Part shown: in pieces, positions 461-5,267 of the stretch
Layout: every line of letters begins with the position of its first letter
How positions within the stretch are numbered: the first letter of the stretch is position 1
Source of the DNA: Haloferacaceae archaeon
GTDB taxonomy: Archaea > Halobacteriota > Halobacteria > Halobacteriales > Haloferacaceae
DNA: 7,486 bases
Direction: 5' to 3'
Assembly (NCBI GenBank): GCA_018609965.1
Contig: JAHENP010000147.1
Location: 1-7,486, forward strand
The notes under the pieces: generated by a model
The model's database searches: none
The model's input: only the letters and a program-made list of their open reading frames with translations
Told to the model about the DNA's origin: nothing
Position numbers and translations under genes: made by a program

Positions 461-526
461 ACGACGCGCGGGTTGTCGCCGCAAGGCGGCGAGGGAGCCT
501 AGGACCTCCCTCACCTCGCGTGTCGT
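461..526 (+). ncRNA. Predicted three-way-junction RNA (leader element or small RNA)
   Basis: The transcript folds almost completely by simple pairing. A 12-bp closing stem joins 461-472 to 515-526 (ten Watson-Crick pairs and two G-U pairs), with a possible thirteenth U-G pair at 460/527. Hairpin A pairs 475-480 with 485-490 and is capped by the GNRA tetraloop GCAA (481-484). Hairpin B pairs 491-497 (GAGGGAG) with 506-512 (CTCCCTC), loop CCTAGGAC. Hairpins A and B abut without spacer; the other junction strands are UU (473-474) and AC (513-514). About 50 of 66 bases are paired. I do not recognise the fold: the junction lacks hammerhead core sequences, and I see no motif of the archaeal riboswitch classes I know. 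It lies 24 bases before the start codon at 550, so it is either a structured leader of that gene or a processed small RNA. Most haloarchaeal mRNAs are leaderless, so a folded leader is uncommon. Confidence 0.6.
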
Positions 527-4513: not shown

Positions 4514-4590
4514 GCAGTTCTGGTGGCGAGTGAGTCGGCTCTGGTTCGCGTGGCGAGCGAGTCAGTTCCAGTTCTCGTAGTGACTCACTC
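4514..4590. repeat. Imperfect tandem repeats between convergent genes
   Basis: Three related blocks of about 25-28 bases carry the motif GTGGCGAG(T/C)GAGTC, at 4523-4536 and 4550-4563, with a decayed third version up to the stop codon of the minus-strand gene. The spacing of the two clear copies is 27 bases. The repeats fill the gap between the 4511 stop and the 4585 stop. No T-run is present. Confidence 0.4.
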
Positions 4591-5267
4591 TTGATCGGCG
4601 ACCGCGGCCGCGTCGGCGGCCGTCGCGGCGACTGTCCCGCCGTGGAAACACACCACCGACTCGAACGTGAGCGCCGCCAACCCCTCGACGGAGTCGAGTG
4701 CCGTCTCCATCTCGGGGGTGAACCCCGCCGGCGGCCCGGCGAGTTCGCCGTCGACGACGGTGAGCGCGTCGGCCGCCAGCAACAGCTTCTCGTCGGGAAG
4801 GTACACGAGACGTGACCGGGCGTGTGACCCGGCGTCTCGACGACTCGCATCGGGCCGGCGTCCGTCCGGAACACCGTTCCGCCGACCAGTTCCACGTCGA
4901 CGGCCGCCGGCGGGTAGCGGTCACCGTCGGATTTGATCGGCTTCGCTCGCCCGTCGACGTACGGTGCGTCGGCGACGTGTGCGTACACCGTCGGCGGCGT
5001 GCCGCGCGCGTCGGCAGCACGCTCCCGGAGCGCGACGAGACAGCCGGCGTGGTCCGGGTCCTGGTGGGTGAGCACCACCCCGGCCACGTCACCCAGATCG
5101 GCGCCGGCGGCCGCCAACGCGTCCACGAGATCGTCCGTCTGTCCCGGGAGACCGGTGTCGATCAACAACAGTCCCGTTGGCGTCTCGACGGCGACGGGGT
5201 GGGTGGTGAGTTCGCGGTCGCCCTGTCGTCCGGTCAGGGTGAGATCGTAGACCGTGTCGGGGAGCAT
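4585..5267 (-). pseudogene. MBL-fold metallo-hydrolase broken by a one-base frameshift
   Basis: The gene starts at ATG 5267 (MLPDTVYDLTLTGRQGDREL) and reads in frame for about 154 residues. This covers LTHQDPDHAG (H68, D70, D72, H73) and ETPGHTPGHVS (H148). The frame then turns into Arg/Ser-rich nonsense. The adjacent minus-strand frame continues the same protein from 4806: YLPDEKLLLAADALTV with the bridging Asp (D167 in the joined count), and VVCFHGGTV with the last His (H209), ending VADQE at TGA 4587-4585. Joining the frames gives about 227 residues, a normal length. The break is at about 4804-4811 and needs one added base, or a -1 shift, to give GHVS-x-YLPDEK. No slippery heptamer is visible, so deletion or sequencing error is likelier than programmed shifting. 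HQDPDH, with Asp for the usual second His, is a known variant of this fold. The gene lies downstream of sod on the same strand, separated by a T6 tract. Confidence 0.85.

Follow-up and report, generated by a model that had tools for sequence, protein, structure and literature searches.

A covarying three-way-junction leader RNA ahead of small-protein genes in haloarchaea, and its possible role as a translational switch

The window analysed here is the whole 7,486-nucleotide contig C147 (JAHENP010000147.1) of the draft genome of a Haloferacaceae archaeon. On its plus strand lie five clustered regularly interspaced short palindromic repeats (CRISPR repeats; positions 44–368), a TATA-like box predicted to be a promoter (TACAATA, 431–437), a three-way-junction leader RNA on the trailer side of the array (461–526), the start-site strand ACGACAUG (545–552), which is complementary to 519–526 and includes the AUG at 550–552, and an open reading frame (ORF; 550–1008) encoding an acidic small protein of 152 amino acids, in whose codons 7–13 lies a further hairpin, P6 (568–587). 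The leader is a member of an RNA family absent from Rfam, and we propose that it probably acts in cis as a translational switch, hiding or freeing the start codon of the small-protein gene.

The structure at 461–526 is a real three-way junction, recovered by its minimum free energy (MFE) fold, by covariance-model matches and by covariation. The 5' strand of the closing stem P1 (461–473) pairs with positions 513–515 and 517–526 of its 3' strand (513–526), leaving U516 bulged. The stem encloses two hairpins, P2 (475–490; six base pairs, 475–480/485–490, with a GCAA loop at 481–484) and P3 (491–512; seven base pairs, 491–497/506–512, with a variable 8-nt loop). The end of the P1 3' strand (519–526, CGUGUCGU) is the strand that the two folds of the proposed switch would share. 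An earlier note, made from the sequence without database searches, had described exactly these two hairpins, within an unbroken closing stem of 12 bp and with about 25 bp in all; the closing stem is present, but as 13 bp with a bulge, and the whole fold has 26 bp.

This junction is both the MFE and the centroid structure (−42.9 kcal/mol), while 200 dinucleotide shuffles average −27.0 ± 3.1 kcal/mol (z −5.2) and none is as low. The longer stretch 440–560, which the note had proposed to fold against shuffled controls, also lies below them, by a smaller margin (z −3.5, with one of 200 shuffles as low), and 461–526 folds almost as well on its minus strand (z −4.3), so that folding energy alone is weak evidence and does not by itself fix the strand. 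Folded singly, 33 of 34 copies adopt the junction, the exception (L034) having had its 5' strand clipped from the input. Shuffles and covariation together rule out a chance fold in GC-rich DNA, an explanation that the note had already thought unlikely. It had also been unable to assign the RNA to a named class, and covariance models of 4227 Rfam 15 families gave no match at 461–526 at E values up to 5, nor at the leader of six divergent loci at E values up to 1; matches at permissive thresholds were to CRISPR repeats, or were weak and lay away from the leader.

Copies of the leader are numerous within one genus. A DNA search of the window's own genome found five further similar copies of 440–560, and a 16-base start-codon motif at ten further places. 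The 152-residue protein has 38 matches in four genomes of the same genus and none in 56 other relatives. Two of these matches are cut by contig ends; the leader is present in 34 of the other 36, and the two that are without it (L012 and L018) are also without the usual N-terminus. Together with the covariation, this comparison is what chiefly establishes the structure. L018 (G002 C1, 2048780) has neither leader nor normal start and looks decayed, although part of the coding hairpin is retained.

A covariance model built from 14 cores (R1) located the RNA ahead of known ORFs and gave 22 matches in genome G003, compared to one from the protein search there. A second model (R2, 58 cores) gave 20, 13, 10 and 27 matches (70 in total) at E values up to 0.01 in G000, G001 (Halobaculum sp. 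MBLA0147), G002 (Halobaculum sp. MBLA0143) and G003 respectively, and none in the other 166 of 170 genomes of the family. One G001 match (C6:42252, E 0.003) has no AUG within 60 nt and was taken as chance, leaving 12 G001 copies; a match in an order-mate (G058, E 0.04) and antisense matches were also dropped. Across 293 genomes of the order, R2 matched in four genomes of another family, those of Halorussus salilacus, H. pelagicus, H. salinus and H. halobius (family Haladaptataceae; Halobaculum belongs to Haloferacaceae). A third model (R3, 54 cores) added no genus among 391 genomes of the class, scans of more than 40 genomes having used stricter filters that weak copies may escape. Named genomes and viral contigs scanned for the protein or the start motif gave no match, near relatives possibly lying outside that scan, and a literature search by organism, peptide and theme returned related work but no report of the RNA family. 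The copy table has 67 entries and leaves out L120 and the copies truncated by contig ends.

The base pairs of the junction change on both sides between copies, a check that the note had proposed. Double changes were seen in 11 of 27 pairs among 33 cores (69 cells, against 21.1 ± 5.4 when shuffled), in 19 pairs among 58 cores (151 cells against 43.4 ± 8.1), and in 19 of 27 pairs among 53 distinct cores that include those of Halorussus (163 cells against 50.5 ± 7.4, 0 of 500 shuffles). By stem, they affect 12 of the 15 modelled pairs of P1, 3 of the 6 of P2 and 4 of the 6 modelled pairs of P3. In the 53 cores 95.7% of cells are paired, compared to at most 53.5% in slid controls; the alignments were fitted to the model, a procedure that is biased towards the structure. 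One pair of P2 and two of P3 are invariant in all 53.

The TATA-like box of the window lies approximately 27 nt 5' of position 461, and when 34 A-group copies and 24 E-group copies are averaged, A+T-rich positions appear about −33 to −25 relative to the stem, in agreement with the promoter that the note had read here. From this box, 25–33 nt 5' of P1, the transcript start is predicted at P1 (approximately 458–461 in the window), and transcription would begin at its first base. The distance from leader to ORF is 7–24 nt in 72 copies (the 67 tabulated and five from Halorussus). A conserved, covarying structure 5' of genes, as looked for in riboswitches, is thus present, presumably transcribed with them. 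One copy, L097 (G003 C54), has ACG where ATG would be expected at the start.

In most copies the sequence of the P1 5' strand recurs just ahead of the AUG, giving the P1 3' strand two possible partners. A-group and Halorussus copies have the start context CACGAC(A)-AUG (CACGACG in one Halorussus copy), L103 has ACACAGC-AUG and L118 ACAGC-AUG, while five G003 copies read CACAGCA-AUG and have P1 changed to CACAGCAC/GUGCUGUG. The third strand, at the start site, changes together with the P1 stem between lineages. In the window copy, 519–526 and 545–552 can form eight pairs with G-U allowed, five consecutive Watson-Crick pairs among them lying before the AUG, and the start-paired fold is the MFE structure (−63.6 kcal/mol, against −61.2 kcal/mol for the start-free fold, a difference of 2.4 kcal/mol).

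A strict test, in which the last 10 nt of P1 were compared to the 9 nt before the AUG with only Watson-Crick pairs counted, set these matches against other AUG contexts, about 0.4–1% of which reach six pairs. At least 6 bp are found in 34 of 36 A-group copies (random contexts reach six in 1.0%), in all five Halorussus copies (0.8%) and in 13 of 24 E-group copies (ACCC-AUG opposite GGGGUGU; 0.8%). All five B-group copies reach 7 bp (CACAGCA with UGCUGUG; random 0.05%), as does the single C-group copy (0.03%), and the D group reaches 5 bp (2%). When alignment columns were shuffled, the A group scored 7.67 against 4.28 ± 0.60, a value reached in 0 of 200 shuffles; the corresponding counts are 0 of 200 for D, 7 for B, 8 for C and 15 for E. 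Forced into either fold, the start-paired minus the start-free energy averages +1.7 kcal/mol in the A group (−5.1 to +5.8; 35 of 36 copies), and is +0.1 in B, −2.6 in C and 0.0 to +4.3 kcal/mol in Halorussus. These calculated energies make the folds near-isoenergetic in the A, B and C groups and in Halorussus, but not in the D and E groups.

In the switch that we propose, the P1 3' strand would pair within the junction in the ON state, leaving the start codon free, and around the AUG in the OFF state, hiding it. Both folds would exist in the cell, and a trans-acting factor would set their balance; the likeliest candidate is an RNA-binding protein gripping the sequence-conserved arms of P2 and P3 and so stabilising the junction. 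The invariant letters in P2 and P3, and the fact that no unpaired core is visible, favour a protein partner over a metabolite, a step to which we give less than even odds.

Several observations weigh against such a switch. The D group favours the free start by 8.2 kcal/mol, and the E group by a mean of 5.9 kcal/mol (23 of 24 copies). Nine of the 24 E-group copies, which are mostly from G003, have at most four Watson-Crick start pairs, and in L092, L098, L114 and L115 of this group P1 has altered while the start site has not followed. Once G-U pairs are counted and the window is widened, 20–39% of random AUG contexts reach six pairs, so that shorter matches alone mean little. An unfitted MAFFT alignment analysed with RNAalifold recovers P1 but only 3 bp each of P2 and P3, and 5 of its 26 pairs show double changes. 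The antisense strand scores too in the covariance search, so that orientation rests on the ORF and the start-site evidence, and copies within one genome are related, so that the counts overstate their independence. Support for the switch is therefore strongest in groups A, B and C and in Halorussus, while in groups D and E the switch is doubtful.

A further paired element lies inside the coding sequence. P6 (CCGUCAC and GUGACGG around the loop AAAAGC in the window) forms 6–7 bp in 48 of 57 A- and E-group copies, as CCGUCAC-N6-GUGACGG or a variant of it; seven of the nine copies that lack it are of one G001 type, and it is absent from the B, C and D copies. At its fourth pair U-A is replaced by C-G in 5 of the 48 copies, together with S8P and D12G in the protein, and at its seventh C-G is replaced by G-C in 12, together with Q9E/V and R11A/P. 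As these two-sided changes alter the protein, it seems to be the pairing that is kept and not the peptide. Pairing in P6 is 95.2%, compared to 19.5–47.1% when slid.

The proteins themselves, which we take to be fast-evolving, have little in common. Between A-type and E-type proteins, alignment is confined to residues 1–21, the part encoded by the hairpin (E 1.3e-5), and Halorussus proteins align with neither (E 0.18, 0.12); judging by these comparisons, the same leader precedes protein bodies that do not align. In Halorussus and its family, protein and RNA occur in the same 4 of 28 genomes and in no others. Among the family proteins scanned there is no Pfam or NCBIfam family above cut-off (the sub-threshold names Alanine_zipper and DUF1843 were disregarded), and no match to a ribosomal-protein family. 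The unit also differs from a type III toxin-antitoxin system in having one RNA copy per gene and, among the proteins scanned, no ToxN-type Pfam or NCBIfam family. An AlphaFold2 (AF2) model of the 152-residue protein is a four-helix bundle (predicted local distance difference test score, pLDDT, 81.2) with its first 24 or so residues unstructured and of low confidence; the model of an E-type protein is poor (pLDDT 51.6). Foldseek gave no match to the AF2 model at E 0.001. VIA-align returned middling Z scores to assorted helix bundles (best 10.0, root-mean-square deviation 2.9, 105 residues aligned), and values below about 13 may reflect merely a common arrangement.

These proteins bear on a first alternative, which we consider unlikely: that the leader is a protein-binding autoregulatory site, at which the encoded protein or a common RNA-binding protein would repress or activate translation with no true two-fold switch. 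The pairs of P2 and P3 that never vary would suit recognition by a protein, gene and leader co-occur in Halorussus, and the weak structural matches of the four-helix bundle include those of Avd and ROP, both RNA-linked helix bundles.

A riboswitch in the strict sense, responding to a metabolite or an ion, is quite improbable. A 5' leader with a covarying three-way junction, alternative pairing that extends to the start codon and many copies per genome would all fit one, but the junction linkers are short, and linkers and loops vary by eye in length and letters, unlike those of known aptamers. The downstream genes encode small proteins without recognisable metabolic or transport identity, and the leader has no Rfam match. 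The fold of the fluoride riboswitch differs from this three-way junction. The note had offered a riboswitch-like leader among its suggestions; this fits as regards a covarying leader of an ORF with an alternative pairing to its start, and no conserved unpaired core is visible by eye. A free small RNA, another of its suggestions, would also be compatible with these results.

The switch that we favour would often operate beside defence and toxin-like genes. In G001 (97% complete, six contigs), nine of the 12 copies have one of the genome's 16 eCIS_core domains (eCIS, extracellular contractile injection system) no more than 1 kb away, which by a simple binomial with 1.2 kb has a probability of about 2e-16, a figure that must be read with the possibility that the units have spread together. 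Eight of the nine are divergent from the eCIS_core gene. Of the eCIS_core genes beside these nine copies five were scanned, and one has a GH-E nuclease domain. The tenth G001 copy (750230) follows cas1, cas2, by eye a cas4-like gene, and a long CRISPR array; the eleventh follows an nSTAND3-like NTPase gene, barely over the Pfam cut-off; and the twelfth has no such neighbour. The eCIS_core toxin-like genes of MBLA0147 lie at 16 places over the genome. We considered whether the small gene might be an immunity gene to the eCIS toxin, and set this aside on its geometry, which with eight of nine copies divergent is unlike published downstream immunity.

Elsewhere the neighbours are more varied. In the draft genomes, copies are preceded on C104 by a type IIG gene, on C241 by a SIR2-TPR gene and on C141 by a split HmaB-like gene, while others sit at CRISPR trailers, and several contigs break at the copy. 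On C104 of G003, two leader genes of groups B and E (L080/L173; 6617–6698 and 7650–7729) face each other 3' of the type IIG gene. Two G002 copies adjoin pentapeptide-repeat proteins, and five G002 copies are without a clear defence neighbour. Against a general link to defence, a clear defence neighbour was found for just 3 of 10 copies in G002, directly 3' of type IIG-like or HmaB-like genes, and for one of the five Halorussus copies, which has a type IIG-like gene next to it, the other Halorussus copies lying near ordinary-looking genes (two of these loci judged by eye only). Names assigned with PADLOC denote family resemblances and not proven systems, and because chosen neighbours were scanned without random controls, the association is descriptive outside the eCIS case.

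With these provisos, the small proteins are likely to be accessory or regulatory parts of the neighbouring defence or toxin loci, which is the least certain step of our interpretation. A broader speculation, which we regard as somewhat unlikely, is that promoter, junction, start strand and, in most cases, coding hairpin make up a portable switch cassette. Attached to unrelated small proteins that border defence and weapon loci in haloarchaea (CRISPR, type IIG restriction–modification, Hma, SIR2, nSTAND and eCIS toxins), it would give guard or accessory proteins one common signal read by RNA, a shared translational alarm of archaeal immunity.

The same distribution could be read at the level of DNA, each copy being a recombination site, or the end or target of a mobile element, that carries a small ORF as well. 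Many dispersed, near-palindromic copies per genome, placed at CRISPR trailers and at the 3' ends of defence genes, would be consistent with this, but we judge it very improbable since the covariation of P1–P3 and the amino-acid-changing compensations in the coding hairpin indicate RNA, the spacing from stem to AUG is steady, and no transposase was seen in the unit (no comparison with empty sites was made).

The relation to CRISPR, suggested by the array in the window, was found for a minority of copies. Window-type repeats were found upstream of 4 of the 34 copies tested (three clear, one degenerate) in stretches of up to 450 nt, some of them short and searched for that repeat type only; these are the copies at the array trailers of the window, C50, C281 and C202 (degenerate). 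Two further loci in the genus have other array types, G001 750230 and G003 C194. On C194 (L095), an array of 19 repeats (328–1578; repeat GCTTCAACCCCACAACGGGTTCATCTGGAAC) lies between two leader genes. A CreA-like match between spacer and promoter was sought at four loci and was no better than shuffled (6, 15, 26 and 50 of 100). The G001-type leader matches the window's CRISPR repeat at 22–23 of 37 bases in most copies. A CRISPR-linked RNA, whether a CreTA-like guard or an array trailer RNA, is thus extremely improbable as the general identity of the leader, for all the copies that lie beside arrays, given that 30 of 34 have no window-type repeat upstream and that spacers match the promoter at the shuffled level; as a general identity, the note's suggestion of a CRISPR-associated RNA is not supported, on the same grounds.

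Other features of the window were noted in passing. GC-rich repeats of GCGGAGCGG-type units lie in the interval that separates the small gene from the gene after it (1191–1264); beyond them are two perfect 13-bp inverted repeats beside T runs (1348–1375 and 1397–1433), possibly terminators of converging genes. At 4585–5267 on the minus strand, the ORF list shows a metallo-beta-lactamase-like protein apparently split over two frames near 4800–4860, either a broken gene or an assembly error.

Many haloarchaeal messages have no leader. If our interpretation is correct, a multi-copy, covarying leader with a built-in competitor for the start codon would constitute a natural translational switch in haloarchaea. 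Its placement near CRISPR, restriction, Hma-like, SIR2 and eCIS toxin-like genes would offer a route to ask whether archaea coordinate defence by RNA, and a coding hairpin whose pairing is maintained through coupled amino-acid replacements would clearly exemplify how RNA structure can shape the N-terminus of a protein.

Several described systems share parts of this arrangement. The haloarchaeal DUF4157/eCIS_core toxin–immunity pairs (PMC11566945) resemble it in that nine G001 copies adjoin eCIS_core genes, but the immunity genes described there lie downstream of the toxin, whereas eight of our nine copies are divergent. CreTA guards (PMC9458426, PMC8501985) are likewise small RNA-centred units beside a haloarchaeal defence system; as described, CreA is a guide derived from degenerate repeats and CreT a toxic RNA, whereas here the leader belongs to a protein-coding gene and mostly has no CRISPR repeats upstream. 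Archaeal cis-regulatory RNAs are few, PMC7247131 referring to only a handful confirmed or predicted. Among them, the ribosomal-protein leaders (S15 of Halobacteria, eL15 and L4) are also covarying 5' leaders found by comparison alone, but as presented there they precede ribosomal-protein genes, while the leaders reported here precede small proteins and reach 27 matches per genome. The fluoride riboswitch of Thermococcus kodakarensis, given in PMC8241225 as the sole experimentally determined natural archaeal riboswitch, is similarly a natural archaeal leader thought to act on translation; it differs in gene class and lineage, and our leader is without an Rfam match. Closest in its proposed action is the synthetic theophylline riboswitch E of Haloferax volcanii, in which, according to the same source, a fold that hides the Shine–Dalgarno sequence and AUG controls translation (PMC8241225). 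Both are leaders in a haloarchaeon whose fold hides, or in our case would hide, the start region or frees it; riboswitch E is man-made, with a known ligand and aptamer, whereas the leader described here is natural and is followed in most A- and E-group copies by a further, coding hairpin.
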